Both the position numbers and the translations under genes were made by a program. Of a DNA stretch of 64,000 bases, positions 8,383 to 44,226 are shown piece by piece. Source of the stretch: Leucobacter triazinivorans (lineage in GTDB: Bacteria; Actinomycetota; Actinomycetes; Actinomycetales; Microbacteriaceae). Every line of letters starts with the position of its first letter. Position 1 is the first letter of the stretch. The notes beneath the pieces were generated by a model that saw only the letters and a list, made by a program, of their open reading frames with translations, did no database searches and was not told where the DNA came from. The DNA is taken from positions 1,054,001 through 1,118,000 of the forward strand of contig NZ_CP035806.1 of assembly GCF_004208635.1 (NCBI RefSeq). Reading direction: 5' to 3'.

Positions 8383-8424
8383 CAATCGGCTCCTCAACCT
8401 AACCATGCGGAAAGAAGCAAAGAT

Positions 8425-9900: not shown

Positions 9901-9949
9901 CGAACGCTCAGATTTCCCCTCGATCGCAGAGTCGATGAGAAAGGTCGCC

Positions 9950-17413: not shown

Positions 17414-17607
17414 GCTTCCGCCTTTCTCGTCGTTGAGTGAGGACTTCACACCGAGCCAAGAGCTGCTCGCTGCCTCCAGACGGCACGATTCTTCACTCGG
17501 GTTCTATCCCCATTGCCACCACAATCGTCTCATGGTTCCAGGCGATCAAACGACTAAGCGAAAGTCACCGCCGCCCAGGCAACGAGACGTAATTCAGGAC
17601 CTTCACG

Positions 17608-18735: not shown

Positions 18736-18854
18736 GATTTGCTTCCTATATCTCTATGTCTGTGAGGAATGTGAAATGGTGAAGTGAAAAGGCTGCTGAG
18801 AAATCGTAAGAGATCCTGGTTACAGCCAGGGGGCGGGAAAACCTGAAGTAATTC

Positions 18855-20513
18855 TTAGTACACGTCTTTGGCGTATCGGCCTGATTGCTTCAACTTTTCG
18901 AGCGCAGCGACCCCAGCGTCACGGGACTCTCCGGGAGGTGCGAGAACTTCGAGTAGTGCATTCTCGACATCGCGTGCCATCCGGTTCTTATCCCCACATA
19001 TGTAAATATGCGCTCCGCGATCAATCCATTTGCGCAGTTCCGCAGCTTCGGACAAGATTTCGTGCTGAACGTAATGCTTATGCATCTGGTCGCGGGAGAA
19101 GGCGAGGCTGAGTTTCGTTAGAACCCCGGAGGCCTGCCATTCGCTCAGCCGATCACCGTAGAGCCAATCCGATTCGCGGTGCTGATCACCGAAGAACAAC
19201 CACGCCTCGTTAGCCTTGTCCCGGGTGGAAAGCTCCTGAAGGAATCCGATAAACGGCGCTACTCCAACCCCTGGACCGATCATGATAACCGGCGATTCAT
19301 CGGTAGGAAGTCGAAAATCGTGGGCCACGACTCGCCGAATAGAGATCTCTGATCCATCTGGCAGACCCTCGAGAAACGAGGTCCCGGCTCCGACATGTAC
19401 CCGGCCCTCACGTGTGTAGCTGATTGAGGAGACCGTGAGACTCAGCCGAGACGTATTGATTGCAGGGCTAGACGCAATAGAGTAAGAACGGCTTTGCAGG
19501 GGCCGCAAGGTATCAACGATCTTCTGCGCCGCTGTTCCTCCAAAACCAAGTTCGTTCACCACGTCAAGGACATCACGCCCCCAGAGCCAGGCATCAATCT
19601 CGTGACGATCCCCTGCGTCGAGGAGGTTTCGGATCTGATCTGCTGCTTCAGAAGAGGTGATACTGGTGATCAGCGTATTGATCATGCCGATATGAGGCAG
19701 TCGAAGCTCAAGACGTTCCCGTAGAGCGGTCGAGAAGGGCAATTCTTCGTCCCCGATACGAACGGTTTCTGCAGCGGGAAAGGCTCGAAGCCACTCCTCG
19801 ACAAGTTGTTCGCTGTTCCGAGGGCGGATATCGATCGAGTCTCCCGCCGAATACGCGAACCCGTCGGGAAGGTCGATGTCGAAGTGAAGCACTCGTTTCT
19901 GCGAACCGGCTCCGGTCAAGAGCCGTCGACCCGCGAGCTTCGCGTGATGCCATTCTTCGGGCGCGCTGGTGAAGAGCGAAGCGACCTCGGAGTCGACCTC
20001 TACGGAGTTCAAAGGAGACCAGGCAGTGATTTCAGGAATTGAAGCAAGCAGTTTCTTTACCCACGCACCTGACGTCATGTCATAGTCGACATCGCAGTCG
20101 ATTCGTTCCTGCATCCGAACGCCGCCGAGGGCACTGAGACGCGCGTCGAAATCCTGCCCAGCCTTGCAGAAATCGTCATACATCGAATCACCGATTGACA
20201 GAACCGCGTATGGTAGATCCGCGTATTGGCTCTCCCCGCAGGACTGTAACCATTGCCAAAACGCATCGGCATTGTCAGGCATGTGCCCGTTGTCATGCGT
20301 AGAGGTCACGATCAGTAGTCGCTGCCAGGAAAGGTTGCCACCTTCGAGCGCATCGTTCAGCGTCAGCAACTCGGTTTGGAGGCCGGCTTTCTTTGCCGAC
20401 TCATGAATGTTGTAAGCGAGGAACTCGGCGTTTCCGGTTTGGCTGCCGTAGAGAATCGTGAGATCTGCTTGAGAAAGTTCTGTCATCGTTATCCGCGTAT
20501 CGGTCGTGGTCAA
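18855..20513 (-). CDS. CysJ/P450-reductase-like diflavin oxidoreductase
   Basis: A 552-residue protein with an N-terminal flavodoxin domain (LTILYGSQTGNAEFLA, about 19-165), a connecting/FAD domain (RSYSIASSP, typical RxYS flavin motif) and an NADPH domain (GPGVGVAPFIGFLQ, FFGDQHRESDWLY, IYICGDKNRMARDVENAL). It would pass electrons from NADPH through FAD and FMN to a heme protein. No CysI-type sulfite reductase lies nearby. It could therefore serve the island's P450 or another oxygenase, although the P450 also has its own ferredoxin pair. It is 25 bp downstream of the aldehyde dehydrogenase at 20539 on the same strand. Confidence 0.87.
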   Translation of the reverse strand: MTTTDTRITMTELSQADLTILYGSQTGNAEFLAYNIHESAKKAGLQTELLTLNDALEGGNLSWQRLLIVTSTHDNGHMPDNADAFWQWLQSCGESQYADLPYAVLSIGDSMYDDFCKAGQDFDARLSALGGVRMQERIDCDVDYDMTSGAWVKKLLASIPEITAWSPLNSVEVDSEVASLFTSAPEEWHHAKLAGRRLLTGAGSQKRVLHFDIDLPDGFAYSAGDSIDIRPRNSEQLVEEWLRAFPAAETVRIGDEELPFSTALRERLELRLPHIGMINTLITSITSSEAADQIRNLLDAGDRHEIDAWLWGRDVLDVVNELGFGGTAAQKIVDTLRPLQSRSYSIASSPAINTSRLSLTVSSISYTREGRVHVGAGTSFLEGLPDGSEISIRRVVAHDFRLPTDESPVIMIGPGVGVAPFIGFLQELSTRDKANEAWLFFGDQHRESDWLYGDRLSEWQASGVLTKLSLAFSRDQMHKHYVQHEILSEAAELRKWIDRGAHIYICGDKNRMARDVENALLEVLAPPGESRDAGVAALEKLKQSGRYAKDVY

Positions 20514-20538
20514 ATGAATGAGGTGCTCCCGAGACTGG

Positions 20539-21909
20539 TCATGCGCCGGTCTTCACGAACACGGTTTTCAGCTCCGTGTAGCCGATAAGCCCCTCCAGGC
20601 CGAGTTCACGCCCGATACCTGACTGCTTGAAGCCCCCGAAGGGGGTTTGGACACGGATCGAGGAGTTTGAATTCACGGAGAGAGTTCCACTCTCGAGCTG
20701 ACGAGCCACTCGAAGCGAACGGGCCACATCGCGAGTCCAGATCGATCCGCTCAGCCCATAGATCGACTGATTGGAAAGAGCAATTGCTTCATCTTCGGTA
20801 TCGAATGGGATAACAACTGCAACCGGCCCGAAGATCTCATCTACTGCGGCACGGGAACGGGCGCTGGGATCGAGCACGATTTGGGGCGCCATCCAGTGAC
20901 CCGGGCCTTCGAGAGATTCACCGCGATACAGGTAGTCAAGTTGAGGCTCGAGGAAGCCTTCAACAGTTTCCTTATGATCAGCAGAAACCAAGGGTCCGAG
21001 ATCTGTGGTTTCTTGGCTCGGATCGCCTACCCGAAGAGTGCGTGTGGCAGCCACAAATCCATCGATGAAGTCATCGAGTACGGACCGCTCCACAAGGATT
21101 CGACTGCGTGCGCAGCAGTCTTGCCCTGAGTTATCGAACACCGCCCACGGTGCTGCCGCAGCTGCAGCTTGGACGTCCGAATCTGCAAATACCAGATTTG
21201 CTGATTTCCCACCAAGCTCCAGGGTCACTCGCTTCAGAGTGGTTGCACTCGCCCGGAGAATGGATTGGCCGACTTCGGTTGAACCAGTGAAACATACCTT
21301 GCCGACCCGCGGATCATTAATCAGAGCAGCCCCGACCGAAGAGCCGCCGCCAGTGACAACCTGGAAGAGGCCATCGATAGGGGAGATTTCATCGATGAGT
21401 TCTCCGAGGCGACGGGTGGACAAAGGGGTAAGCGATGCAGGTTTCACGATTACAGAGTTCCCGGCCGCTAGTGCCGGCGCGATGTTCCACGACGCGATCG
21501 GAAGTGGAAAGTTCCAAGGTGTGATGACTCCGACGACGCCAATGGGCTCGTGGAAGGTGAAACTCATACCGTCGTCAAGGCTGATGGTGTCACCATGAAC
21601 TTTGTCGATCGCGCCTGAATAGTAGCGGAAACAGGAGGCAACTCCTGCAACCTCGGCACGTGCGGCCCGGATTGGCTTGCCCACATCCGTTGATTCGAGC
21701 AGTGCCAGTTCTTCGAGATTTGCCTCCACCGTGTCAGCAATCCGGGAAAGGAATCCTTGACGTTCAGCAAGGCCGAGAGCACGCCACTTTCGCTGCGCTG
21801 ACTCTGCTCTGGAGATCACCTCCGCTACCTCTTCAGAGCTAAAAGAACGTACCTCTGCTACCAACTGCTCAGTGGCCGGATTCCAAACGTCGATGGTTGG
21901 GGAAGTCAT
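20539..21909 (-). CDS. Aldehyde dehydrogenase, aminoaldehyde/betaine-aldehyde type
   Basis: A 456-residue aldehyde dehydrogenase. ATG 21909 is preferred because AGGAGA lies seven bases upstream; a longer frame to 21954 lacks such a site. Motifs are PWNFPLPIASWNIAPALAAGN, KPASLTPLS, CFTGSTEVG, the base E231 (LELGGKSAN) and C265 in GQDCCARSR. It resembles PuuC-like gamma-glutamyl-aminobutyraldehyde and betaine-aldehyde dehydrogenases. It faces the permease/ligase operon across a shared regulatory region, so oxidation of a gamma-glutamyl-aminoaldehyde is a reasonable, unproven role. Confidence 0.88.
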   Translation of the reverse strand: MTSPTIDVWNPATEQLVAEVRSFSSEEVAEVISRAESAQRKWRALGLAERQGFLSRIADTVEANLEELALLESTDVGKPIRAARAEVAGVASCFRYYSGAIDKVHGDTISLDDGMSFTFHEPIGVVGVITPWNFPLPIASWNIAPALAAGNSVIVKPASLTPLSTRRLGELIDEISPIDGLFQVVTGGGSSVGAALINDPRVGKVCFTGSTEVGQSILRASATTLKRVTLELGGKSANLVFADSDVQAAAAAAPWAVFDNSGQDCCARSRILVERSVLDDFIDGFVAATRTLRVGDPSQETTDLGPLVSADHKETVEGFLEPQLDYLYRGESLEGPGHWMAPQIVLDPSARSRAAVDEIFGPVAVVIPFDTEDEAIALSNQSIYGLSGSIWTRDVARSLRVARQLESGTLSVNSNSSIRVQTPFGGFKQSGIGRELGLEGLIGYTELKTVFVKTGA

Positions 21910-22330
21910 CCAGGTTTCTCCTATGAATTGGGACATGAAAAGCGAGAGGGCCACGACAAGTGGGGTCCGGCCGAGCGAGATGCCCAGACCTCACGAAGGT
22001 GAACTCCTACCGGAACTATTCCCTAGCCGATACAGCGCAAGTGAGTGCGAAAGGCACTATGCATCTGGTCGAGATGTGCGGTATGCACATTGGGGTCGAG
22101 ATGGCCTGGAGGACAATCAACTCGATCCAGTACTCAAGGGAATCGGCCGACGCAGATATGCGAAGTGAACATCGTCATCGACGATTGTGTTCACATTGCA
22201 CGCCCCAGGTCGCGCAGGCTGAGATTTGCTGATTCCGCATCCTTGAGTTTCCGAGTCGGGGTGTCGAAGGAGCGAACCCCATGGAGGGACTCGTGTCGAA
22301 TTCGTCAGTTTCAAAGGAGAGACACACACA
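21910..22330. promoter_or_regulatory. Divergent regulatory region between aldehyde dehydrogenase and permease genes
   Basis: This 421-bp region contains no convincing gene. It holds two dyads. One is ATGTGC at 22074-22079 with GCACAT at 22085-22090 (5-nt spacer). The other is a long hyphenated repeat, GTGAACA at 22165-22171 and TGTTCAC at 22188-22194, with inner arms TCGTC and GACGA at 22172-22176 and 22180-22184. Both are placed to control two divergent catabolic units. The permease start is preceded by AAAGGAG. Confidence 0.5.
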
Positions 22331-23833
22331 ATGACCACAGTCGAAACAGCAGATCGGGGCGCTACACCGCAAGCTTCGACCAAACTGCTGAAGAACTCCA
22401 TCAGGTTCTTCACCATCGTGCTTATGGTGACAGCCGCAGCGGCTCCGCTTGTCGTGGTGTCAACATACATCCCGCTTTCGCTGGCCTTCGGAGCTGGGAT
22501 GACTATCCCGCTAACGTATCTCACTGCGACACTGATTCTGCTCGTCTTCACGGTTGGCTTTGCGCAGATGGCGAAGCGGATCACCGCAAGTGGCGCCTTC
22601 TACAATTTCATCACCCAGGGTCTGGGAAAGCCGGTGGGCCTCGGTGCGGGAATGACCGTGATGATCGGCTACAGCATGATCGCTGCTGCGATTCAAGGCG
22701 GCTTCGGCTTCTTCGCAGCACAAATGCTGGAAAACTACCTCGGTGTCGTCATTCCCTGGTGGGTCTGTAGCGTGGTGTCGCTACTCCTGATGTTCGTTCT
22801 CGCGTACTTCAAGGTCACGCTAACGGGCAAGATTCTGGGCATTGCGCTCGGGCTTGAAGTCCTTATCGTGTTCATTGTTGCTACGATGACCATTCTGCTC
22901 GGTGGAGCGGAAGGGCAACAGCTGCAGACATTCAATCCTCTGGGTTGGGCCGCTGCGCCGGCCGTAGGCATCGGATTCTTCTTCGCTTTCTGGTCATGGA
23001 TCGGATTTGAGACCACCGCAATCTACGGGGAGGAAACCACTGATCCGAAGAAAAGCGTTCCGAGAGCTACTTACATCGCGGTAATCACCCTCGGGCTTTT
23101 CTACACTTTCGCAGCCTATGCCGCAGTCGTCGGTTTCGGTAGCGCATCAGTCGATGAGGCAAACACGCTCCTTGACCAGTACTTCTTCGTACTTGCCGAT
23201 ATGTACACCTGGCCCTTCATCCACGTACTCATGGACTTCCTCGTGGTCACAGGCTTCTTTGCTTGCTCGTTTGCGTTCTTCAACAATGCCGCAAGGTATC
23301 TCTTCTCCATGGGACGAGATAGGATCCTGCCGTCACGCCTTGGCCATACGCACCCAGTCCACAAATCGCCCTACATCGCAAACGGCCTTCAGGCCGTGAT
23401 TGCCATCACGGTCGTATTGATCTTCGCTGTGATCGGGGCGGACCCGCTGCTGCACCTCGGCGGTTGGCTACCAATCTTCTCCACGTTGAGCATCGTCTTT
23501 GTACAGGCTCTGGTGTCGGTTGCCGTCATTCGATACTTCAATCGGGAAGGCCGCCGAACAGCAGGCGACTGGTGGAAGACCTTCGTCGCGCCCCTCATCG
23601 GAGCAATTGCGCAGGGAATCGTCATGATTCTCTTGGTGAGCAATCTCCCCTTCTTGGCAGGCTCGGAAGAGGCCGTTGTCACGCTGATCCCGCTGTACGT
23701 GGCCATCGTGTTCTTCGGCGGTCTGGCCTACGCTCTCTATCTCAGGCGTTCGCATCAGAACCGATATGCGCGTATCGGAACCGTGTACGACGAAGAGGAA
23801 ATCGAAGAGATTGCTGAGCAGCAGTCCGCCTAG
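22331..23833 (+). CDS. APC family amino acid/amine permease
   Basis: A 500-residue integral membrane transporter with about twelve hydrophobic segments. It starts with an APC first helix (IRFFTIVLMVTAAAAPLVVV), then a conserved loop (AKRITASGAFYNFITQGLGKPVGLGAG), FFFAFWSWIGFETTAIYGEE and FNNAARYLFSMGRDRILP. The C-terminal tail is acidic (YDEEEIEEIAEQ). It precedes the amidotransferase, ligase and P450 genes and is likely the uptake system for the amine substrate. A strong hairpin terminator follows at 23851-23886, so the downstream operon may have its own promoter or rely on partial read-through. Confidence 0.9.
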   Translation: MTTVETADRGATPQASTKLLKNSIRFFTIVLMVTAAAAPLVVVSTYIPLSLAFGAGMTIPLTYLTATLILLVFTVGFAQMAKRITASGAFYNFITQGLGKPVGLGAGMTVMIGYSMIAAAIQGGFGFFAAQMLENYLGVVIPWWVCSVVSLLLMFVLAYFKVTLTGKILGIALGLEVLIVFIVATMTILLGGAEGQQLQTFNPLGWAAAPAVGIGFFFAFWSWIGFETTAIYGEETTDPKKSVPRATYIAVITLGLFYTFAAYAAVVGFGSASVDEANTLLDQYFFVLADMYTWPFIHVLMDFLVVTGFFACSFAFFNNAARYLFSMGRDRILPSRLGHTHPVHKSPYIANGLQAVIAITVVLIFAVIGADPLLHLGGWLPIFSTLSIVFVQALVSVAVIRYFNREGRRTAGDWWKTFVAPLIGAIAQGIVMILLVSNLPFLAGSEEAVVTLIPLYVAIVFFGGLAYALYLRRSHQNRYARIGTVYDEEEIEEIAEQQSA

Positions 23834-23850
23834 CCTCTTGAGCTGCTGCA

Positions 23851-23886
23851 GGGGTGTACCACGTTCGGTTGTACGTGGTACACCCC
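23851..23886 (+). terminator. Rho-independent-type hairpin after the permease gene
   Basis: GGGGTGTACCACGT at 23851-23864 pairs perfectly with 23873-23886 (14 bp, 8-nt loop). It starts 18 bp after the permease stop. No long T run follows, which is common in high-GC actinobacteria. Confidence 0.75.
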
Positions 23887-23913
23887 GTTCCGCGTAGTCA
23901 GCGTCTGAAATAA

Positions 23914-24729
23914 ATGAGTGCACCAGGGAGGAAAGAGAGCAAATTGAATCAACAGCGCCAACCAAACGAAGCGCCCAGGGTGCTTGTTGCCCAGCCCGAT
24001 CCACAGGGCGGCCCTGATCGGCTGCGAGGCTGGGCCTTACGGCACAAGATTGAACTCGATGTTCGTCCCGGAGATCATCCGGACTTGCCGTCCAACTTGG
24101 ACGGCTATGCAGGTCTGATTGTTCTCGGTGGGCATATGGGAGATCGTGATACCGCCAAGTATCCCTGGCTGCAGCGACTCCGCGAACTCCTTCACGATGC
24201 TCGTTCACGTGAGCTTCCAGCCCTCGGGATCTGCCTGGGTGCTCAACTCATGGCTTCGGCATTCGGCGGACGAGTGGAACGGGGAGACCTGGGGTTCGAA
24301 GCCGGAGTGGTAATGATTCGACGCGAGGAAGAGGCTGAGTTCGATCCGATTTTCGGGCGGCTGCCGGAATTGATGTATTCCGGGGCCATGCATGGTGACG
24401 CCATTACCACTCTTCCTAAAGATGCCGTACTCCTGGCGACCGGTGAACAGTACCCCCACCAGGCGTTCAGGGTCGGCAGCTGTTGGGGAGTGCAATTTCA
24501 CCCTGAAGTCAGCCCTGCACAATACGAGAAATGGGTGGAATCGCTATGTGCAGAAGATCCAGCCAACGCAGAGAGCTATCGGGAATCAATCCCAGAATTT
24601 CAGCTGCTTGACGACAAGATCGCTCGGGGATGCGCGGAGCTTGCAGGGAACTTTTTCCAGCTCTTGGGTCAGCACGATATAGCCAAGGTTGGGTTGCCGT
24701 CTCGATGCAGGGCACCCGGCCCAGAGTGA
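23914..24729 (+). CDS. Class I glutamine amidotransferase-fold hydrolase (GuaA-N-like)
   Basis: A 271-residue protein if started at ATG 23914; TTG 23944 behind GGGAGGAAAGAGAG is an alternative. The triad is visible: C107 in GICLGAQLM, and H196 with E198 in WGVQFHPEV. LIVLGGHMG forms the oxyanion region. It stands alone without an ammonia-accepting partner domain. The next gene is a glutamine-synthetase-like ligase. In aniline degradation such proteins hydrolyse gamma-glutamyl amides or oppose the ligase, so hydrolysis of a gamma-glutamyl amide is the favoured inference. Confidence 0.82.
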   Translation: MSAPGRKESKLNQQRQPNEAPRVLVAQPDPQGGPDRLRGWALRHKIELDVRPGDHPDLPSNLDGYAGLIVLGGHMGDRDTAKYPWLQRLRELLHDARSRELPALGICLGAQLMASAFGGRVERGDLGFEAGVVMIRREEEAEFDPIFGRLPELMYSGAMHGDAITTLPKDAVLLATGEQYPHQAFRVGSCWGVQFHPEVSPAQYEKWVESLCAEDPANAESYRESIPEFQLLDDKIARGCAELAGNFFQLLGQHDIAKVGLPSRCRAPGPE

Positions 24730-24839
24730 CAGTATTCGTCCTGCACGGCGCGCAGCACGGTTGTGTGCGGAAAGCACACTCAACAAGTCGTCCCCTCCAA
24801 TATCTTGAATCTTGTAACCACTGAATTGAAAGGTCATTC

Positions 24840-26228
24840 ATGAACAACGGTGTTCGAAACTTCGATACGTCAACCGATCTCGAGAGGTTCTTCGAGGAAA
24901 ACCAGGTACGTGTCGTCAAGCTTGGCGCTCCAGACATCGACGGAGTCTGGCGTGGGAAGCGGATCATGGCCAACTACTTTGTCGAAGCAGTAGCGCATTC
25001 CGGAACGAATATCTGCAACATCCTGTTCGGGTGGGACATTCAGGACGTTACCATTCCCGATCTCACTTACACGGGATGGCACACGGGCTATCCGGACGTG
25101 AATCTCAGGCCAGACCTCTCGACCCTGCACCTGGTTCCGAGCGAGCCAGGTACAGCGGCTGTCATCTGTGACATCCTCACAACCGACGGTGACCCCCTGC
25201 AGATTTCTCCCCGTGGTGTTCTGCGCAGAGTGATCGAACGAGCGCACCGGCACGGGTACGAGCCGATCTGCGCCTATGAGTTCGAGTTCTATCTCTTCGA
25301 AGGCACTCCACGAGAACTTGCGCGGAACGCCTATCGGGATCTTGAGCCGATCTCGGACGGCAGTCATACCTACAGTGTGTATCGGGATACCGGAACCGAA
25401 CCGATCATTGGTGAGATTCGTGAACGGCTCGCTCAGGTGGGGGTCTTCATCGAAGCCAGCAACAGCGAACACGGCCCTGGCCAGTTCGAGGTGAACATCC
25501 ACTACGGCACGGCGCTCGAGGCCGCCGACAGTGCATTGATCCTCAAGCACACCGTAAAGGAAGTTGCAGCCAAACACGGTTACACTGCCTCGTTCATGGC
25601 GAAGATCAAGGTCGATACCGCCGGCAGTTCTGGTCACGTTCATCAGAGTCTGGTCGCGATCGAAGATGGAAAGCCACTTTTCGCCAACCCTGAGAACGGC
25701 CTTGAGCTCAGCCCGCTCGGTGCCAGCTATCTTGCCGGTATCGTCAACCACGCTCGTGAATTGACTGCCCTCTATCTTCCTACGCCGAACTCCTACAAAC
25801 GAGTTGAAGGGGGGCAGTGGGCAGGTTCAAGTGCCACCTGGGGACTCGATAACCGCACCGTGGCCATCCGATCGATTCCATCTACTGGTGCCGCTGCACG
25901 AGTCGAGAACAGGATTCCTGGCGCTGACGCGAACCCCTACCTCGTTCTCGCAGCATGCATCGCTAGCGGCATCGACGGAATCGAGAAGAAGCTGACTCCG
26001 TCAGCACCGATCGTCGGCAACGCATACGAACTCGACAGCGACGAGTCTCTCAGGCTACCCAACACACTCGAGAAGGCCATCGATGTCTTCTCCCAAAGCG
26101 AATTCGCAAAGGAGTACTTCGGAGAAGACTTCGTGCGGCACTTCTCAGAAGTCAGGCGCTGGGAGAACCACCAGGAACGAATCTCGATCACCCATTGGGA
26201 AATTGCTCGCTACCTCGAGCACATCTAA
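24840..26228 (+). CDS. Glutamine-synthetase-like gamma-glutamyl amide ligase
   Basis: A 462-residue glutamine synthetase fold protein. It shows YEFEFYLFEG (the metal-binding ExE strand), SNSEHGPGQFEVNI, the ATP-site GSSGHVHQSL, NSYKRVEGG.WAG, and NRTVAIRSIP followed by RVENRIPGADANPYL. The divergent N-terminus and lack of an adenylylation-type tyrosine loop point away from housekeeping GlnA and toward the PuuA/IpuC/AtdA1 group, which joins glutamate to an amine using ATP. With the permease, hydrolases and P450 around it, ligation of glutamate to the incoming amine is the likely first catabolic step. AAAGG precedes ATG 24840. Confidence 0.87.
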   Translation: MNNGVRNFDTSTDLERFFEENQVRVVKLGAPDIDGVWRGKRIMANYFVEAVAHSGTNICNILFGWDIQDVTIPDLTYTGWHTGYPDVNLRPDLSTLHLVPSEPGTAAVICDILTTDGDPLQISPRGVLRRVIERAHRHGYEPICAYEFEFYLFEGTPRELARNAYRDLEPISDGSHTYSVYRDTGTEPIIGEIRERLAQVGVFIEASNSEHGPGQFEVNIHYGTALEAADSALILKHTVKEVAAKHGYTASFMAKIKVDTAGSSGHVHQSLVAIEDGKPLFANPENGLELSPLGASYLAGIVNHARELTALYLPTPNSYKRVEGGQWAGSSATWGLDNRTVAIRSIPSTGAAARVENRIPGADANPYLVLAACIASGIDGIEKKLTPSAPIVGNAYELDSDESLRLPNTLEKAIDVFSQSEFAKEYFGEDFVRHFSEVRRWENHQERISITHWEIARYLEHI

Positions 26229-26285
26229 GCGGCAACGCTCGACTCGGTTTCTTTACCAAAGTTCAACCTAATAGGAGTATCTACA

Positions 26286-27047
26286 ATGGCCCGATTTGAT
26301 GGTCGATTCGCCGCCGTGACCGGTGCGGCATCCGGCAATGGACGTGCGATCGCAGAAAAGCTGCTCGCTGACGGCGCTAAGGTCGCAGCACTTGATCTCA
26401 ACACTGATGCCCTCACAAACGTGTTTGGCGACAACCCGAACGTCTTGAACGTCGAGTGCAACGTCGCCGACGAGCATTCATCTCGAGCGGCAATGGAAGC
26501 GGTTTCGAAAGAGTTTCCGCGCCTGGACGTGCTCGTTAACAACGCCGGCATCGTCAAATTCGGTACGTTCGAAGAGCTTTCGGTTTCCGAATGGGATCAG
26601 GTCTTCGCAGTAAACTCAACCGGGCCCTTCATCGTGACTCAGGCTGCCTCCAAGCTGCTGCGCTCGGAGGAGGTGTCGCACACGCGAGCCGTGGTGAACA
26701 TCACGTCTGTCGAAGCCCACATCGTGATTTCGAGTAGCGGGCACCCGCAAATCCACTACAACGCCTCGAAGGGCGCGCTGCTTCAACTCACCCGCGCGCT
26801 TTCGGTCGAACTGGCTCCCGCCGGGATCCGGGTGAATGCGGTGGCCCCCGGCTACATCAGAACTCCGTTCACCGCCGAAGCCCTGGAGCGGGAGGAAGTC
26901 CGTAAGTTCCTGCTCGACCGTACCCCCTTGGGCCGCATCGGTGAACCCGAGGATGTCGCGAACGGCGTCGCATTCCTCGCTTCCGATGAGGCGAGTTGGG
27001 TGACGGGTTCGACGCTCTTCGTTGACGGTGGATGGACAGTGTACTGA
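26286..27047 (+). CDS. Short-chain dehydrogenase/reductase
   Basis: A 253-residue classical SDR. The dinucleotide motif is TGAASGNGRAIA (about 13-24), followed by NNAGIVKFG, the catalytic serine in NITSVEAH, YNASKGALLQLTRALS (Y-x3-K), and VNAVAPGYIRT. It would oxidise a secondary or primary alcohol with NAD(P)+. Its place between the ligase and the PuuD-like hydrolase suggests that it acts on a hydroxylated, possibly gamma-glutamylated, intermediate made by the P450. The stop lies one base before the next start, so translation is coupled. Confidence 0.88.
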   Translation: MARFDGRFAAVTGAASGNGRAIAEKLLADGAKVAALDLNTDALTNVFGDNPNVLNVECNVADEHSSRAAMEAVSKEFPRLDVLVNNAGIVKFGTFEELSVSEWDQVFAVNSTGPFIVTQAASKLLRSEEVSHTRAVVNITSVEAHIVISSSGHPQIHYNASKGALLQLTRALSVELAPAGIRVNAVAPGYIRTPFTAEALEREEVRKFLLDRTPLGRIGEPEDVANGVAFLASDEASWVTGSTLFVDGGWTVY

Positions 27048-27048
27048 A

Positions 27049-27756
27049 ATGACCGCTCCACTCATCGGGATTTCCGCTCCACGCAGTGCGGAGGAATCGG
27101 CATTCGGAATAAAAGACTCGACCTTGCAGGTGATGGAGTATGCGGATGCTGTGGTTTCCGCTGGCGGTCGTGCTGTTCTCCTGCCGTCCACGGCGCAGAT
27201 CCCCGAGGATCTACTCGCAGGCATCGACGGTCTGGTGCTGAGTGGCGGCGGCGACCTGTCACCCTCTCTATTCGGTGAGGAACCGGTCGAGGCATCTTAC
27301 GGTATCAGCGAGATTCGGGACGCTTATGAGACAGCGTTGGTTCTCGATGCACAGAAGCGGAAGATCCCGGTTCTTGCGATCTGCCGCGGTCTGCAACTCA
27401 TCAATGTGCTGCGAGGCGGGAGCCTCCACATGCATATCGACGGACATTGGCAGACAGAGTCGGCCGATCAAGCAACGCATCGCGTCATGCCTGTGGCTGG
27501 GTCGTTCTTCTCCACCATCGTCGGCAGCGAGGCGGTCGATGTCAACAGCTACCATCACCAGGCGATCGACGTACTTGGCTCCGGGCTTACGCCAGCAGCA
27601 CACGACGGATCTCTGATTGAAGCGTTCGAAGACCTGGAGAACGACATCCTGGCGGTGCAGTGGCACCCCGAGCACATGTTCGCGGTATCAGAGTCTCAAC
27701 TCGCGCTATTCCGGAACCTGGTCGAACGGGCTTCCCGCAACGAAGAAAGGAAATGA
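27049..27756 (+). CDS. Gamma-glutamyl-gamma-aminobutyrate hydrolase family protein (peptidase C26, PuuD-like)
   Basis: A 235-residue class I amidotransferase-fold hydrolase started at ATG 27049. The triad is C112 (AICRGLQLINV), H206 and E208 (VQWHPEHM), and the family block LSGGGDLSPSLFGEEP is present. PuuD-type enzymes cleave gamma-glutamyl amides to glutamate plus the free amine or amino acid, which would recycle the glutamate spent by the ligase. It is the second such hydrolase in the operon, so the two probably act on different intermediates or one is a salvage enzyme. Confidence 0.88.
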   Translation: MTAPLIGISAPRSAEESAFGIKDSTLQVMEYADAVVSAGGRAVLLPSTAQIPEDLLAGIDGLVLSGGGDLSPSLFGEEPVEASYGISEIRDAYETALVLDAQKRKIPVLAICRGLQLINVLRGGSLHMHIDGHWQTESADQATHRVMPVAGSFFSTIVGSEAVDVNSYHHQAIDVLGSGLTPAAHDGSLIEAFEDLENDILAVQWHPEHMFAVSESQLALFRNLVERASRNEERK

Positions 27757-27758
27757 CC

Positions 27759-28940
27759 ATGTCAGAGCAGAAAGAGGTTGTCGAGGATTTCGACTTCCAT
27801 GGTGAAGCACTCGATGAGATATTCGAGGATTATGATGTGATGCTGAACAAGTGCCCGGTGGGCCACAGCTCCAAGTACGGCGGATTCACCTACATCGCGA
27901 AAAGCGAAGATATCTTCGCAGCAGAGCAGGATCCGGATACCTTTGCAGTGGCACCCTCGATGCTGCTGCCGTCGTTCGGCACCGATGACCCGCTCATCCC
28001 GATCGATATCGACCCCCCGACGCACGCGGGCTATCGGAAGATCCTCCTGCCGCTCTTCACCCCGATGAACATCGCCTCGCTCGAGCCCGGCATGGTTGAG
28101 ACGGCGAAGCAGCTCGCTGAAGATGTCATCTCGGCGGCGGCGGACAACGACGGCGTCGCGGACGTCTCCAAGCTATTCGCCCGGCCGATGCCCACTATCG
28201 TGTTCAGCCGCCTCGCCGGCTACCCCGAAGAGGATTGGCCGAAGTTTGACCAGTGGGTCGATGACATCATTTACCGTCGCACGAAAGAGCCTGAAGTGGC
28301 CTATGCTGCCGGTGGCAAGATCACCGAGTACTTCGACGCCATGATTAAGAAGCGTGAGGCCGAAGGCGGAGAGTACAACGATCTCCTCGACAAGGTGCTG
28401 AACTCTCAGGTAGACGGGCGTGAACTCACTCATGAGGAGAAAATCTCTTACAGTTTCCTGCTCTTCCTCGCCGGACTAGACACCACCGCCTGGGCGCTGC
28501 GATCCTCGCTCTGGTACCTCGCCGGCAACCCGAAGGCGCAGCAGCAGCTCCGCGATAACCCTGATGAGATCCCGACTGCAGTCGAAGAGTTCCTCCGCAC
28601 ACTCTCCCCGGTACAGGCGATGGCTCGGACCTGCCTCAAGGACACGGTCGTGCAAGGCAAGGAGATCAAGGCGGGCGAACGAGTGGTGCTCGTCTTCGGA
28701 GCGGGCAACCGCGACCCGGAGGTGTACGAGGATCCGCACGACATCAAGATCGATCGTGAGGATAACCGCCACCTTGCATTCGGAGGTGGAATTCACCGCT
28801 GCCTCGGCTCGAACCTCGCCCGCAAAGAAATGGTCATTGGTCTCGAGGAATTCCTCAAGCGCGTCCCGAGCTTCGAGCACGCAGGCGGGGAAGTCTGGCA
28901 CGGCGTCGGCCCTCTCACTCTCCGAATCGGAAAGGAGTAG
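27759..28940 (+). CDS. Bacterial class I cytochrome P450 monooxygenase
   Basis: A 393-residue soluble P450 started at ATG 27759, eight bases after GAAGAAAGG; ATG 27753 is too close to that site. All signature elements are intact: I-helix AGLDTT at 238-243, E277-F-L-R280, and the heme loop FGGGIHRCLG with thiolate C348. The next two genes encode its ferredoxin and reductase. It would hydroxylate an amine or its gamma-glutamyl derivative, either for N-dealkylation or ring opening as in actinobacterial morpholine/piperidine degradation, or for methyl hydroxylation as in isopropylamine degradation. Subfamily not assigned. Confidence 0.95.
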   Translation: MSEQKEVVEDFDFHGEALDEIFEDYDVMLNKCPVGHSSKYGGFTYIAKSEDIFAAEQDPDTFAVAPSMLLPSFGTDDPLIPIDIDPPTHAGYRKILLPLFTPMNIASLEPGMVETAKQLAEDVISAAADNDGVADVSKLFARPMPTIVFSRLAGYPEEDWPKFDQWVDDIIYRRTKEPEVAYAAGGKITEYFDAMIKKREAEGGEYNDLLDKVLNSQVDGRELTHEEKISYSFLLFLAGLDTTAWALRSSLWYLAGNPKAQQQLRDNPDEIPTAVEEFLRTLSPVQAMARTCLKDTVVQGKEIKAGERVVLVFGAGNRDPEVYEDPHDIKIDREDNRHLAFGGGIHRCLGSNLARKEMVIGLEEFLKRVPSFEHAGGEVWHGVGPLTLRIGKE

Positions 28941-28947
28941 GTGCACC

Positions 28948-29160
28948 ATGGCGAAGGAACTGTACATCGATCTCTCGCGATGCCAAGGTCACGCTCGATG
29001 CTGGGCAATAGCCCCAGAGACCTTCGGCATCGACGATGAGGGCTATGCGTACGTCATCGAGGGGCGGGAGGGATCCTACGATGAAGAGAATGTGCGCAAG
29101 GCGATCCGAAACTGTCCGGAACGCTCGATCCTTATCCGCGAGACCGAGGAAAGCCAGTGA
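28948..29160 (+). CDS. 3Fe-4S ferredoxin
   Basis: A 70-residue ferredoxin with three cluster cysteines, C12, C18 (CQGHARC) and C56 (NCPE). The position of the missing fourth ligand is occupied by a non-cysteine, as in P450-associated 3Fe-4S ferredoxins. AAAGGAG precedes ATG 28948. It lies 7 bp after the P450 and overlaps the reductase by 4 bp, so it is the electron carrier between them. Confidence 0.94.
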   Translation: MAKELYIDLSRCQGHARCWAIAPETFGIDDEGYAYVIEGREGSYDEENVRKAIRNCPERSILIRETEESQ

Positions 29161-30317
29161 CTGCGAGCCGCTACGAAATCGTGGTGGTGGGTGCATCGGT
29201 TGCTGCCGAGGCACTCGCCACACGACTTCGTGAACTCGGGTACGATCGCGAACTCCTAGTCATTGATCGAGACGCCCGCATGCCCTACGAGAGGCCTCCG
29301 CTTTCAAAGCTATATCTCACCGAACCGGACAGCACGGAAATCGGTGTGGAATGGGATGAAGGAACACCGGTGACCATAGCCGAGGCGCTGGCAGTAGACC
29401 CCGAAGCGAAAACCTTGACGCTGAGTGTTGCCGCTACGGGTTCGACGCGTGTCGTAACTTACGACACATTGGTGATCGCTACGGGTGCATCCCCGATTAT
29501 GCTTCCGTTCGCACCGTCTGGAATGATGCAGTTGCGAACGGTCCAGGACGCTGATCGACTGCGGCGCGCGGTTCACGCAGGAGCGCGGGTGGGAATCATC
29601 GGCGCCGGTGCCATCGGTGCTGAGCTGGCGACTTCGCTCCGCAAGCTCGGAGCAGAGGTTGTGTTGCTCGACAAGGCCGATCGTCCGCTCGAACGGCTGC
29701 TTGCCGGTCACCTTGGGAACGAGGTCACGTCATGGCTCGAGGAGTTGGGGGTCGATTGTCGTTGGGAGGCCGATATTCGAGGTATCGAGGGCGGCCCCGG
29801 TGATTGGAGCGTTACGCTCGGCGACGAAGCTGAGGCGCTGAATTTCGAACTATTACTCTGCGCCGTCGGAGCCCGTCCCGCAGTCGATTGGTTGGCTTCG
29901 AGCGGTTTGCTCAGCGAAGGGCAACTGCTCTGCAACGAATCGGGACAGGTCGTCGCGCCAGATACTGTGCACGAGAACATCTATGGCATAGGCGATGTTG
30001 TCACGCGCCTACTTAGCGACGACGTGAGAGTACGCACCGAAAGCTGGAGTGCGGCCGCGGAACACGGAGTTCACCTTGCGGAACGGCTCATGGGTGAAGG
30101 ACCCGCAACCCCAGAGACCCCGTACTTCTGGACCGATGTCGCCGGGCGCAAAGTACAGGTGCTCGGTGTGATTAACCGCGACGGAGATGCTTCCGTAGAG
30201 TTCGAGAACCCGGCCCGAGGTACTGTGCTGCACAAGGTGGTCGGCGAAGACGCCACCGAGGGATGGATCGGTGTGAATGCTCAGCCAAAGATCGCGATGT
30301 TGCGAATGTCATCCTAA
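29157..30317 (+). CDS. FAD-dependent ferredoxin reductase
   Basis: A 386-residue rhodocoxin/putidaredoxin reductase-like flavoprotein. It has an N-terminal FAD Rossmann fold (YEIVVVGASVAAEALA), a PYERPPLSK motif, TLVIATGA, the NAD-binding GIIGAGAIGAELA (about 143-155), and YGIGDVVTR near the flavin. GTG 29157 overlaps the ferredoxin stop (GTGA). It completes a three-component P450 system that takes electrons from NAD(P)H. Slight variation in the first glycine motif (GASVAAE) is typical of the family. Confidence 0.93.
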   Translation: MTASRYEIVVVGASVAAEALATRLRELGYDRELLVIDRDARMPYERPPLSKLYLTEPDSTEIGVEWDEGTPVTIAEALAVDPEAKTLTLSVAATGSTRVVTYDTLVIATGASPIMLPFAPSGMMQLRTVQDADRLRRAVHAGARVGIIGAGAIGAELATSLRKLGAEVVLLDKADRPLERLLAGHLGNEVTSWLEELGVDCRWEADIRGIEGGPGDWSVTLGDEAEALNFELLLCAVGARPAVDWLASSGLLSEGQLLCNESGQVVAPDTVHENIYGIGDVVTRLLSDDVRVRTESWSAAAEHGVHLAERLMGEGPATPETPYFWTDVAGRKVQVLGVINRDGDASVEFENPARGTVLHKVVGEDATEGWIGVNAQPKIAMLRMSS

Positions 30318-30638
30318 CCTTCTGTAGTGATAGGAGCTACGTTCTGCTCCACCATGCCCAGTGCCCAAGCTGTTTCCGCCTAGGTGCGGCGGCTGGGCAC
30401 TGGGCGTCTTAGATCACGGGGATCTCAGCTTCTGTGGTGTCGATCTTCGGCGAGAGGCTCAGCATTGCGCAGAGACCCCTCTTCATGCATGCGAGCATCG
30501 AGACGCTTGAGCTCGACGGCAGGTATCACCCACATGACTTCTCGCAAGTGAGACCAATGAAGAATGGCAGTTTTTGACAGCCTTACTGGTCGAAAGGCTT
30601 GATGAAGCAGCAGCATCTTATATCGGAGAAAGCAGATT
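30318..30638. promoter_or_regulatory. 321-bp region with candidate pyc promoter/operator
   Basis: After the hairpin at 30357-30406 no gene is seen. TTGACA at 30574-30579 is a possible -35 box, but only a weak -10 (CTTGAT) follows. Directly overlapping it is a dyad, AGCCTT at 30579-30584 and AAGGCT at 30594-30599, that could be an operator. The pyruvate carboxylase ribosome site CGGAGAAAG lies just before 30639. Confidence 0.35.
30357..30406 (+). terminator. Hairpin terminator after the P450 operon
   Basis: GCCCAGTGCCCA at 30357-30368 pairs perfectly with 30395-30406 (12 bp, 26-nt loop), 40 bp after the reductase stop. GTCTT follows; there is no long T run. Confidence 0.7.
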
Positions 30639-33600
30639 ATGTTTACCAAGGTATTGGTCGCGAACCGGGGCGAGATCGCCATCCGCGCTTTCCGCGCGGC
30701 CCACGAGTTGGGGGCGTCCACCGTCGCGGTGTTTCCGTATGAGGATCGCAATTCACTGCATCGTCTGAAGGCGGACGAGGCGTATCTCATCGGCGAGGTC
30801 GGCCATCCGGTGCGCGCCTACCTCGACGTCGCCGAGATCGTGCGCGTCGCGGTCGAGTCGGGCACCGACGCCATCTACCCGGGCTACGGTTTCCTGTCTG
30901 AGAACCCGGAGCTCGCCGCGGCGGCCGAGGCCGCCGGGATCCGCTTCATCGGTCCCGGCCGCGAGGCGCTGGAGATGGCCGGCAACAAGGTCGCGGCGAA
31001 GGAGCACGCGATCGCGGCGGGCGTGCCGGTGCTGCGGTCGACGCCGCCGTCGACCGATGTGGATGCGCTGATCGCTGGAGCGCGCGAGATCGGGTTCCCG
31101 GTGTTCGCGAAGGCGGTCGCGGGGGGCGGCGGTCGCGGCATGCGCCGTGTCGAGCGCGAGGAGGATCTGCGCGACGCCCTGGAATCCGCGATGCGTGAGG
31201 CGGAGTCGGCGTTCGGCGATCCGACGATGTTCATCGAGCAGGCGGTGCTGCGGCCGCGCCACATCGAGGTGCAGGTGCTCGCGGACAAGACGGGGGCGAC
31301 GGTGCACCTGTTCGAGCGCGACTGCTCGGTGCAGCGACGGCACCAGAAGGTCGTCGAGATCGCGCCGGCCCCGAATCTGTCGCAGGAGAAGCGGGATGAG
31401 CTCACACGGGACGCGATCGCGTTCGCGAAGTCGATCGGCTACGAGAACGCCGGCACCGTGGAGTTCCTGCTCGACACCGAGGGCGAGCGCGCCGGGGAGC
31501 ACGTGTTCATCGAGATGAACCCGCGCATCCAGGTCGAGCACACGGTGACCGAGGAGGTCACCGACATCGATCTCGTGCGCTCGCAGATGCTGATCGCGGC
31601 CGGCCAGACGCTGGAGGAGCTCGAGCTGACGCAGGATCAGATCCACCTGCGGGGAGCCGCGCTTCAGTGCCGCATCACGACCGAGGATCCCGCGAACGGA
31701 TTCCGCCCCGATCTCGGCCGCATCACCGCCTACCGCTCGCCGGGCGGCGGAGGGGTGCGCCTCGACGGCGGGACGATCAACGCGGGCGCTCAGATCAGCC
31801 CGCACTTCGACTCGATGCTGGCGAAGCTCACCTGCCGCGGCCGCACCTTCGAGGACGCGGTGGTGCGCGCCCGCCGTGCTCTCGCCGAGTTCCGCATCCG
31901 CGGCGTCGCGACCAACATCCCCTTCCTGCAGGCGGTGCTCGCCGATCCCGACTTCCAGGCGGGCGACGTGGCGACCTCCTTCATCGAGGAGCGGCCCGAG
32001 CTGCTCGAGATGAACAAGCCGAAGGATCGCGCCACCCGGTTGCTGCAGCACGTGGCGAACGTCACGGTGAACCAGCCGAACGGCGTGCGACCTGGCGCCG
32101 TCGACCCGGCGTCGAAGCTGCCCCCCGTCGACCTGTCGCAGCCCGCCCCCGCCGGTCACCGGCAGCAGCTGCTCGAGCTCGGCCCCGAGGGATACGCGCG
32201 GGCGCTGCGCGAGCAGACGGCGCTCGCTGTGACCGAGACGACGTTCCGCGATGCGCACCAGTCGCTGCTCGCGACGCGCGTGCGCACGAAGGACCTGGTG
32301 CGGGTCGCCCCCTATGTCGCGCGCCTCACCCCCGAGCTGTGGTCGGTGGAGGCCTGGGGCGGCGCCACCTACGACGTCGCCCTGCGCTTTCTCGGAGAGG
32401 ATCCCTGGGAGCGCCTGGCCGCTCTGCGCGAGGCGATGCCGAACGTACCGATCCAGATGCTGCTGCGCGGCCAGAACACGGTCGGCTACACGCCGTACCC
32501 GGCGCAGGTCGCGCAGGCCTTCGTGCGGGAGGCCGCCGAGACGGGCGTCGACGTATTCCGCATCTTCGACGCACTCAACGACGTGAACCAGATGCGGGTG
32601 GCCATCGACGCCGTGCGCGAGACCGGCACGGCCGTCGCCGAGGTCGCGATGGCCTACACCGGCAACCTGCTCTCTCCCGCGGAGGACAAGTACACGCTCG
32701 ACTACTACCTGAGCCTGGCCGACGAGATCGTCGCCGCGGGCGCGCACGTGCTCGCAGTCAAGGACATGGCGGGGCTGCTCCGACCGGCGGCCGCGGCGAA
32801 GCTCGTGACCGCGCTGCGGGAACGCTTCGACCTGCCCGTGCACCTGCACACGCACGACACCCCCGGCGGTCAGCTCGCGACGCTCCTGGCCGCCTCCGCG
32901 GCCGGCGTCGACGCGGTCGACGTCGCGTCGGCGCCCATGTCGGGCACCACGTCGCAGCCGTCTCTCTCGGCGCTCGTCGCGGCGCTCGCCGACACCGAGC
33001 GCGACACGGGCCTCGACGCCGAGGCGGTGTACGCCCTCGAGCCCTACTGGGACGCGGTCCGCACGCTCTACAAGCCGTTCGAGTCGGGGCTGCCGTCTCC
33101 CACCGGCCGCGTGTACTCCCACGAGATCCCCGGCGGTCAGCTGTCGAACCTGCGCCAGCAGGCCATCGCGCTCGGCCTGGCCTCGAACTTCGAGAAGATC
33201 GAGGACATGTATGCGGCGGCGGATCGCATCCTCGGCCGGATCCCGAAGGTCACGCCGTCGTCGAAGGTCGTCGGCGACCTCGCTCTGCACCTGGCGGCGG
33301 TCGACGCCGACCCCGCCGACTTCGAGGCGAACCCGGGGAACTACGACGTGCCGGACTCGGTGGTCGGGTTCCTCGCGGGCGAGCTGGGGGAGATCCCCGG
33401 CGGCTGGCCCGAGCCGTTCCGCTCGAAGGTGCTCGCGGGGCGCGACGTGAACATCGCGGTCGCTCCGATCGGCGAGGACGACGCGGCGCAGCTCGCAGGC
33501 ACGAGCGACGAGCGCCGGCGCACCCTGAACCGCCTACTGTTCCCGGCCCCGACCCGCCAGTACGAGGCCTCTCGCGAGCAGTTCGGCGATCTCTCGGTAC

Positions 33601-34043
33601 TCGATACCTCCGACTACCTCTACGGGCTCGATCCGGGCTCGGAGCACGCGATCGATCTCGCGCGCGGCGTGCGCCTGTACGTGGGGCTCGAGGCGATCGG
33701 CGAGGCGGACGACAAGGGCGTGCGCACGGTGATGGTGCGCGTGAACGGCCAGCTGCGGCAGGTGTTCGTGAAGGACGAGTCGGTCTCGGTCGACACGCCG
33801 ATCGCCGAGAAGGCCGACCGCACGCTGCCCGGCCACGTGGCCGCCCCGTTCTCGGGGACCGTCACGGTGAAGGTCGCCGTCGGCGCCCGGGTCGAGGCGG
33901 GTCAGCCGGTCGCGACGATCGAGGCGATGAAGATGGAGGCCGCGATCACCGCGCCGGTATCCGGCAAGGTGCAGCGGACCGTCTTCAACGGTGTTCGCTC
34001 GGTCGATTCTGGCGACCTGATCGCAGTCATTGGGGCTTCCTGA
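30639..34043 (+). CDS. pyc: Pyruvate carboxylase
   Basis: An 1134-residue single-chain pyruvate carboxylase, full length for the family. Biotin carboxylase comes first (ANRGEIAIRAFRAAHELG, GGGGRGMR, FIEMNPRIQVEHTVTEE), then the carboxyltransferase barrel (TETTFRDAHQSLLATR, VEAWGGATYDVA, LHTHDTPGGQ), and a C-terminal biotinyl domain with the lysine in EAMKMEA. It makes oxaloacetate from pyruvate, so a cell living on a substrate that yields only C3 units can fill the TCA cycle. It is the last catabolic gene of the island. The interior is far richer in GC than the P450 operon, whereas the first and last about 60 bp are not. Confidence 0.96.
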   Translation: MFTKVLVANRGEIAIRAFRAAHELGASTVAVFPYEDRNSLHRLKADEAYLIGEVGHPVRAYLDVAEIVRVAVESGTDAIYPGYGFLSENPELAAAAEAAGIRFIGPGREALEMAGNKVAAKEHAIAAGVPVLRSTPPSTDVDALIAGAREIGFPVFAKAVAGGGGRGMRRVEREEDLRDALESAMREAESAFGDPTMFIEQAVLRPRHIEVQVLADKTGATVHLFERDCSVQRRHQKVVEIAPAPNLSQEKRDELTRDAIAFAKSIGYENAGTVEFLLDTEGERAGEHVFIEMNPRIQVEHTVTEEVTDIDLVRSQMLIAAGQTLEELELTQDQIHLRGAALQCRITTEDPANGFRPDLGRITAYRSPGGGGVRLDGGTINAGAQISPHFDSMLAKLTCRGRTFEDAVVRARRALAEFRIRGVATNIPFLQAVLADPDFQAGDVATSFIEERPELLEMNKPKDRATRLLQHVANVTVNQPNGVRPGAVDPASKLPPVDLSQPAPAGHRQQLLELGPEGYARALREQTALAVTETTFRDAHQSLLATRVRTKDLVRVAPYVARLTPELWSVEAWGGATYDVALRFLGEDPWERLAALREAMPNVPIQMLLRGQNTVGYTPYPAQVAQAFVREAAETGVDVFRIFDALNDVNQMRVAIDAVRETGTAVAEVAMAYTGNLLSPAEDKYTLDYYLSLADEIVAAGAHVLAVKDMAGLLRPAAAAKLVTALRERFDLPVHLHTHDTPGGQLATLLAASAAGVDAVDVASAPMSGTTSQPSLSALVAALADTERDTGLDAEAVYALEPYWDAVRTLYKPFESGLPSPTGRVYSHEIPGGQLSNLRQQAIALGLASNFEKIEDMYAAADRILGRIPKVTPSSKVVGDLALHLAAVDADPADFEANPGNYDVPDSVVGFLAGELGEIPGGWPEPFRSKVLAGRDVNIAVAPIGEDDAAQLAGTSDERRRTLNRLLFPAPTRQYEASREQFGDLSVLDTSDYLYGLDPGSEHAIDLARGVRLYVGLEAIGEADDKGVRTVMVRVNGQLRQVFVKDESVSVDTPIAEKADRTLPGHVAAPFSGTVTVKVAVGARVEAGQPVATIEAMKMEAAITAPVSGKVQRTVFNGVRSVDSGDLIAVIGAS

Positions 34044-42227: not shown

Positions 42228-42236
42228 GGAGAGATG

Positions 42237-43688: not shown

Positions 43689-43719
43689 ACCCCTACCCCT
43701 GTTCAAGAAGGAGTATCCG

Positions 43720-44226
43720 ATGCCCGATTCCCGCCCGCAGGTCGACCGCGCAGAGGCAGCCTACAACGCGCTCCGAGACCTTGCGCACACCGTCAGAGAT
43801 ACCCCGCCAACGCAGTTGTATGAACTCAACCGTGAGCTATTGGGGATAGCCCGCCTGGTCCCGGACGTACTCAGGAAGGTCAGTGCGCTCGCGCTCGCCC
43901 GGAGCGACGAGGCCGTCCTCGACTCGTCCACGCCTGGCGGGTCTGGCAAGGGCGAAGTCGAACGGGCGGCCCGTCGCCTGCTCGCCGCGTCGGAACTCAT
44001 CGATGCCGCCGAGTCGAACCTCGACCGTGCATCGCAGGCGCTCTCCGTGCTCGTCTGGCACCCCGAGAAGACAGACTCCGCTCCGACGCTCAGGGAACCT
44101 CAGATGACCGCTGCGCGACATGGGCAAGGGACGTCACCGTCGACGCCCGTGTCTTCGCCTGTACTGGCCGGGCCTCCTCGTCCGCTTCGCAGTCCGTCGC
44201 AGGGTGTTCCGGGGCTGAGTAGATGA
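43720..44226 (+). CDS. Hypothetical protein of the transfer operon
   Basis: A 168-residue helical protein starting at ATG 43720 after AAGAAGGAG. Regular helices (DRAEAAYNALRDLAHTVRD, YELNRELLGIARLVPDVLRK, EVERAARRLLAASELIDAAE) are followed by a Ser/Pro-rich tail. There is no membrane segment. It overlaps the VirB4-like ATPase start by 4 bp and so is likely a partner or small stabiliser of that ATPase. Function unknown. Confidence 0.68.
   Translation: MPDSRPQVDRAEAAYNALRDLAHTVRDTPPTQLYELNRELLGIARLVPDVLRKVSALALARSDEAVLDSSTPGGSGKGEVERAARRLLAASELIDAAESNLDRASQALSVLVWHPEKTDSAPTLREPQMTAARHGQGTSPSTPVSSPVLAGPPRPLRSPSQGVPGLSR

Follow-up and report, generated by a model that had tools for sequence, protein, structure and literature searches.

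What would a glutamine synthetase (GS)-like ligase do beside a cytochrome P450 system on a mobile element? The question is raised by a 64-kb stretch of the Leucobacter triazinivorans chromosome (the window; G000:C1:1054001-1118000), whose coordinates are used throughout unless genome positions are indicated, the genome being one contig of 3,478,815 bases. The answer we propose, to which sequence comparison lends a high probability, is the catabolism of isopropylamine through γ-glutamylation and a P450. The block 15608-34043, together with 7282-11347, would be an Ipu-type cluster forming the cargo of an actinobacterial integrative and conjugative element (ICE) in a tRNA-Pro gene, and the TrzN, AtzB and AtzC enzymes encoded elsewhere in the genome would supply isopropylamine from s-triazines.

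In the proposed pathway, the permease would import isopropylamine and the IpuC-clade ligase would couple it to glutamate at the expense of ATP. Receiving electrons from the ferredoxin and its reductase, the P450 would hydroxylate one methyl group to give γ-glutamyl-alaninol, which a short-chain dehydrogenase/reductase (SDR) and an aldehyde dehydrogenase (ALDH-B) would convert to γ-glutamyl-alanine. A PuuD-like C26 hydrolase would split this product into glutamate and alanine, alanine dehydrogenase (Ald) would form pyruvate and an extra pyruvate carboxylase (pyc) would carry pyruvate to oxaloacetate. A class I glutamine amidotransferase-fold hydrolase (GATase), a zinc alcohol dehydrogenase (Zn-ADH) and a second aldehyde dehydrogenase (ALDH-A) may provide a second route through free L-alaninol. 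The cluster would presumably be inducible.

Gene content and conservation of the cluster

The gene set was compared across two collections of GS relatives. A pattern scan covering a single genome of each species returned 161 of them, and the best 80 of these 161 were used: 20 loci lie at 57-80% identity and the remainder at 39% and below. This survey is incomplete, a further relative at 61% (L167) having turned up outside it. When 72,556 plasmid records were searched by tblastn with the GS, 690 matched; eight exceed 60% identity (two of Paenarthrobacter aurescens TC1, and those of Microbacterium YJN-G, P. ureafaciens, AT5, ZXY-2, LT1 and D5-1) and are followed by two alphaproteobacterial matches at 51%, then by 42.5%. 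The 27 related loci (GS identity at least 50%) combine the 20 genome-scan loci with seven plasmid loci, and 60 loci at 39% or less served as distant comparison. Gene presence in the related loci was scored with per-gene identity thresholds, then rechecked without any threshold; the 27 include many near-identical Micrococcaceae loci, and the presence patterns are uncorrected for relatedness.

The initial annotation had named the genes at 18855-34043 and their families, and all are found as intact open reading frames (ORFs) of those families in Pfam and NCBIfam profile searches. The core operon (24840-30317, + strand) encodes the GS-like ligase, SDR, C26 hydrolase, P450, ferredoxin and ferredoxin reductase, with the permease and GATase genes upstream and pyc after it. 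The opposite (-) strand encodes the PuuC-like ALDH-B, a CysJ-like diflavin reductase, Ald and a GAF/PucR regulator. Further left lie the genes for Zn-ADH, ALDH-A, a class III aminotransferase, an AceE-like E1 and a class I aminotransferase. Counts below refer to the 27 related loci.

15608-17449 (-): GAF/PucR-type regulator, probably of the cluster (Pfam; 22 loci at 27% identity or more)
17608-18735 (-): alanine dehydrogenase (TIGR00518, above cut-off)
18855-20513 (-): CysJ-like diflavin reductase, perhaps for electron supply (flavodoxin, FAD and NAD domains; 17 loci at 40% or more)
20539-21954 (-): ALDH-B, PuuC-like (18 loci at 55% or more)
22331-23833 (+): APC-family permease, probably for the amine (Pfam; 71% identical to the pYJNG permease)
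23914-24729 (+): class I GATase-fold hydrolase, candidate IpuF-type (PF00117; Cys, His and Glu kept in 5 of 5 aligned)
24840-26228 (+): putative γ-glutamylisopropylamide synthetase, IpuC clade (60-70% identical to TC1 IpuC and the pYJNG GS; Trp at site 327, site 179 lost)
26286-27047 (+): SDR dehydrogenase (Pfam; 19 loci at 55% or more)
27049-27756 (+): Peptidase_C26, predicted PuuD-like γ-glutamyl hydrolase (PF07722, E 9.7e-53; catalytic residues kept); the ORF spans 27022-27756, and the probable ATG start, at 27049, is the one given in the initial annotation
about 27759-28940 (+): cytochrome P450 (PF00067; 66% and 72% identical to the pTC1 and pTC2 P450s)
about 28948-29160 (+): ferredoxin, presumably of [3Fe-4S] type from its CxxHxxC...CP motif (three cysteines kept in 6 of 6 aligned; no Pfam or NCBIfam match)
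29157-30317 (+): NAD(P)H:ferredoxin reductase (PF07992)
30639-34043 (+): second pyruvate carboxylase (NF009554, above cut-off; 2 loci, and present on pTC1)

A P450 relative lies near the GS gene in 25 of the 27 related loci, missing only from L019 and L029, which are cut by contig ends, and in none of the 60 distant loci even without an identity threshold, which argues that the gene set goes beyond chance. The ferredoxin accompanies the GS in 24 related loci (thresholded). The P450/ferredoxin/reductase set that the initial annotation described is borne out. The ald gene occurs in 17 related loci and in no distant one, the latter also without threshold. The C26 gene is found in 19 related loci at 43% identity or more and, as a C26-like gene without threshold, in 25; the corresponding unthresholded counts are 20 for SDR-like and 22 for ALDH-B-like genes. 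No cluster gene passes the identity thresholds in the 60 distant loci, where removing them brings in generic ALDH (54), SDR (12), Zn-ADH (7), C26 (4) and GATase (1) genes.

The ten best plasmid records for the P450 are the same ten as for the GS. Six actinobacterial plasmid records beyond TC1 carry the ligase, P450 and C26 genes, and the annotation of pYJNG, AT5 and LT1 also contains the remaining core set; the two alphaproteobacterial plasmid clusters are smaller than the actinobacterial ones. In a sample of the family, the GS was detected at E 1e-120 in one of 199 genomes, namely its own, and in the genus the P450 was detected at E 1e-110 in five of 54.

The ligase and its probable substrate

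The ligase is 60% and 64% identical to the two IpuC proteins of TC1, over 100% and 97% of its length, and groups with them in our comparison. Its scores fall below the model cut-offs for GlnA (259 vs 429 bits), γ-glutamylputrescine ligation (252 vs 650) and type III GS (250 vs 470). In E. coli GlnA numbering, Glu129, Glu131, Glu212, Glu220, His269, Arg321, Arg339 and Glu357 are kept in all of the 120 best homologues, and Arg359 in 119, with one gap. Asp50, Tyr179 and Glu327 are the ammonium-site residues of GlnA. Tyr179 is lost in all 120 homologues, and Glu327 is replaced by Trp in 112 and by Phe in eight; site 50 is placed differently by two alignments, one of which gives Asp in seven of the 120. 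PuuA has Tyr at site 327.

The Gln-synt_C domain might suggest an ordinary glutamine synthetase in a chance neighbourhood, but this possibility receives practically no credence from us: the neighbourhood is conserved and a canonical GlnA is encoded elsewhere in the same genome. The assignment as a true GlnA is itself ruled out by sites 179 and 327 and by the sub-cut-off NCBIfam score, in agreement with the initial annotation, which had set the ligase apart from GlnA. Trp or Phe at site 327 is shared by two further GS-like proteins encoded in the genome, so the change would mark non-GlnA ligases generally.

Phe occupies site 327 in four loci without an SDR gene between the GS and P450 genes (L018, L032, L166 and L167, about 4 kb being seen for the last two), and these may form a subfamily for another amine. 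The alphaproteobacterial relatives, also without SDR, have Trp at this position.

The substrate is approached through the rest of the genome, which encodes proteins 100% (AtzC), 99% (TrzN) and 99% (AtzB) identical to those of TC1:

genome 2839340-2847192, L150, far from the ICE: trzN, atzB and atzC (identity to TC1 proteins)

Their neighbourhood (about 2.84 Mb) contains a Y2/IS91-type transposase, a DUF4158 frame and a xanthine/uracil permease gene, and the guanine-plus-cytosine (GC) content drops to 47% in the 2-kb bin of the trzN-atzBC region that starts at genome 2844000. Prometryn bears two isopropylamino groups. According to PMC10609637, prometryn is degraded by L. triazinivorans JW-1, and the AtzC of this strain has been purified. 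The presence of TrzN, AtzB and AtzC in the same genome narrows the probable substrate to isopropylamine, the first of the candidate amines named by the initial annotation. Among plasmids, AtzC occurs at 99% identity or more in nine of the 72,556 records, and six of the nine strains with a plasmid GS of at least 50% identity also carry it: TC1, AT5, D5-1, AT13, SR38 and a P. ureafaciens strain. The two genes there share an accession or lie on adjacent ones, replicons of one strain being paired by organism name and neighbouring accession within the plasmid records.

Two other substrates have to be weighed. Ethylamine, with glycine as product, could be the main one, being the other side chain of atrazine in PMC6776027; the same paper, however, assigns ethylamine to amine oxidases, and an alanine dehydrogenase travels with the cluster, so that we regard this as extremely unlikely. 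A pathway resembling that of PipA/MorA (CYP151), for the cyclic secondary amines piperidine, pyrrolidine or morpholine, is suggested by the combination of a P450, a 3Fe-4S ferredoxin and a nearby GS-like gene, which is found in mycobacterial pip/mor loci. It is very unlikely in our view, since ald and the triazine genes point to a primary amine that yields alanine.

Several observations count against isopropylamine or weaken the case for it. For three of the nine AtzC records (Pseudomonas ADP, EGD-AKN5 and one P. ureafaciens), no IpuC-clade GS appears in the ten top matches, and three of the nine IpuC strains (YJN-G, ZXY-2 and LT1) have no AtzC on their plasmids. The GS clade is also found in genera such as Saccharopolyspora, Micromonospora and Leifsonia. 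Ten of the 27 related loci lack ald; among these ten, L029 is truncated by a contig end. Trp or Phe at site 327 excludes GlnA but does not establish the use of isopropylamine, and the Ipu assignment in TC1 is itself made by homology to Pseudomonas KIE171 and proteomics.

Alternative orders of the steps

Is glutamate removed before or after the two oxidations? PuuD and PuuC act on glutamylated substrates, and the PuuD-like C26 and PuuC-like ALDH-B therefore point to a possible retention of glutamate up to the alanine stage. The arrangement that we favour tentatively, at somewhat less than an even chance, is a Puu-type route in which the P450 and SDR would replace the amine oxidase, glutamate would be kept through both oxidations and C26 would free alanine; the GATase, Zn-ADH and ALDH-A would form a separate alaninol module, and both modules, with a private ald and pyc, would sit on one ICE. 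No PuuB-type flavin amine oxidase was found among the 20 ORFs scanned, in which the only DAO match, below cut-off, lies in the ferredoxin reductase. The two genes of the alaninol module that lie apart from the core are:

7282-8382 (+): Zn alcohol dehydrogenase, accessory (Pfam; 18 related loci at 45% or more)
8425-9900 (+): ALDH-A, accessory (Pfam; 20 related loci at 44% or more)

Once the thresholds (43-55% or more) are applied, every one of the 27 related loci has either both SDR and C26 or neither, and ALDH-B follows this pattern in 24. L033 contains SDR, C26, ALDH-B and ald; with all thresholds removed, no GATase, Zn-ADH or second ALDH is seen within 10 kb of it. C26 may thus suffice as the hydrolase, which is compatible with either order. 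In L018, SDR is missing, and GATase, ALDH-A and a Zn-ADH-like gene (41%) are present. Taken together, the contents of L033 and L018 suggest a modular pathway, one module leading to alanine with glutamate retained and the other passing through alaninol.

The order described for TC1 keeps the same pathway and substrate, and we give it nearly an even chance. An amidotransferase-type hydrolase would cleave γ-glutamyl-alaninol and the free L-alaninol would be oxidised by alcohol and aldehyde dehydrogenases. For this step PMC6776027 postulates an IpuF-like amidotransferase and then names A1RCH7 (AAur_pTC10065), which is a relative of the window C26 (49% identical). Without thresholds, moreover, C26-like genes (33-40% identity) occur without SDR in five related loci (L018, L026, L027, L028 and L032), a point against the retention of glutamate. 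The TC1 order is in turn opposed by the likeness of C26 and ALDH-B to PuuD and PuuC, and by the GS-SDR-C26-P450 gene order, kept at high identity in most of the 19 related loci that hold both SDR and C26. As to the step order alone, the glutamate-retained and published versions appear about equally probable.

The remaining genes of the left part of the cargo are:

9815-11347 (+): class III aminotransferase, start uncertain, overlapping the preceding ORF (PF00202; 12 related loci at 50% or more)
11947-14289 (+): AceE-like thiamine-diphosphate E1 (Pfam/NCBIfam)
14307-15554 (+): class I/II aminotransferase (Pfam; no related locus)

The initial annotation had argued for an alanine/pyruvate end point from the combination of ald, the E1 and pyc. 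The distribution of ald speaks for such an end point, and a role of the E1 in it finds no support among relatives, none of the 27 related loci having an E1. The best 120 E1 homologues listed are actinobacterial wherever named, and the E1 is detected at E 1e-200 in five of the 54 genomes of the genus, its own included. In two of these the wider neighbourhoods contain neither the class I aminotransferase nor the Ipu core, and one has a generic ALDH at 27-29%.

The ICE-borne pyc is 91% identical to the chromosomal copy. Its GC content of 71% is chromosome-like, vs 58% in the neighbouring cargo (7282-30317), and it looks as if recruited from a related chromosome.

The carrier element and related systems

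That the cluster lies on an ICE, as the initial annotation had proposed, is borne out by the conjugation genes and integrase that flank the cargo and by attachment repeats at the tRNA-Pro gene, which the integrase gene adjoins:

3119-6691 (-): MobF/TrwC relaxase (PF08751, E 5.6e-84; NCBIfam MobF above cut-off)
42234-45704 (+): SCO6880-family and VirB4-like conjugation genes (NCBIfam SCO6880 above cut-off, VirB4 models below theirs)
50555-52738 (+): TraG/TraD-type coupling protein (PF12696, PF02534)
59741-60985 (-): tyrosine integrase (PF00589)
61343-61419 (-): tRNA-Pro(cgg), whose 3' 37 nt are the right attachment repeat (tRNA call and repeat search)

The 37-nt 3' end of tRNA-Pro (genome 1115343) is exactly repeated at genome 1050263 and 1042822. 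The repeats at 1050263 and 1115343 are 65,080 bp apart, and the left one lies about 3.7 kb outside the window, so that the ICE would measure about 65.1 kb, with its left end about 3.7 kb to the left of the window. By its sequence, the cargo is carried by a chromosomal ICE integrated at tRNA-Pro, for which excision and transfer are predicted. The GC content is 65% in 34377-59663 and 73% to the right of the tRNA gene. In another genome of the genus (G205), a different element, about 16 kb long, sits between these flanks and has no match to the catabolic genes, save a 30% AraC match; a clean empty site was not found for the ICE location.

Other features of the region may be recorded here. A tandem 7.4-kb segment (L107:4823-12263, genome 1042822-1050262) shares the tRNA-Pro and the 37-nt repeat and contains RES-domain, TetR-like and integrase-like frames. 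Three DprA-like (DNA_processg_A) genes lie near the relaxase end (1477-2550 and L107:14566-16650). A 1922-aa protein with weak SNF2/Helicase_C matches is encoded between the coupling protein and the integrase (52713-58481), and the chromosomal flank has a tandem 17-nt repeat, CGGCGGGCTGCCACACC, at 63270-63405.

The initial annotation knew of no described pathway with this gene set on an ICE. This fails for the gene set, which by sequence is of the known Ipu kind (the ligase gene is annotated as ipuC on pTC1 and pTC2, and further plasmids carry the set); it stands for the carrier, no report of an Ipu set on an ICE having been found in the open-access literature, nor any of a link to trzN-atzBC in this genome or of the two-module reading. 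If our interpretation is true, movement by ICE is added to the plasmid carriage described for Ipu genes, and separate loci have been brought together into one degradation pathway: in this genome triazine hydrolases would release isopropylamine and a separately placed ICE should enable its use, which would complete the account of herbicide degradation.

As judged from sequence, the closest described relatives are found in TC1, whose plasmids pTC1 and pTC2 carry its two Ipu clusters; according to PMC6776027, the Ipu proteins of this strain were quantified in atrazine cultures. IpuC, SDR, amidotransferases, P450, ferredoxin, reductase, ALDHs, ADH, a GAF regulator and ald are in common, and pTC1 also has pyc, its ald and pyc genes lying after ipuC. 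The TC1 clusters, however, lie on conjugative plasmids and not on a chromosomal ICE, their gene order differs, and in the stretches searched they have no AceE-like E1 or class I aminotransferase. The cluster of pYJNG (Microbacterium sp. YJN-G; GS 70%, SDR 78% and P450 66% identical) has the same order of permease, GS, SDR, C26, P450, ferredoxin and reductase genes as the window, with the GATase elsewhere. It differs in that the plasmid is typed as non-mobilizable, that ALDH-B and the diflavin reductase lie downstream on the same strand, and that ppsA is nearby, with no pyc in the stretches read. The best genome-scan match, Leucobacter ruminantium A2 (L014; GS 80%, P450 84%, pyc 90%), keeps the core order on a contig of only 26 kb, and lacks the class III aminotransferase, E1 and class I aminotransferase within the 21 kb examined.

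The putrescine (Puu) pathway of E. coli shares the logic of ligation, oxidation and hydrolysis. The window GS, ALDH-B and C26 are 31%, 39% and 34% identical to PuuA, PuuC and PuuD, whereas a P450 system and an SDR stand in place of the PuuB amine oxidase, and the substrate would be a monoamine. The likeness of ALDH-B to PuuC and of C26 to PuuD offers a way of testing the two step orders directly against each other.

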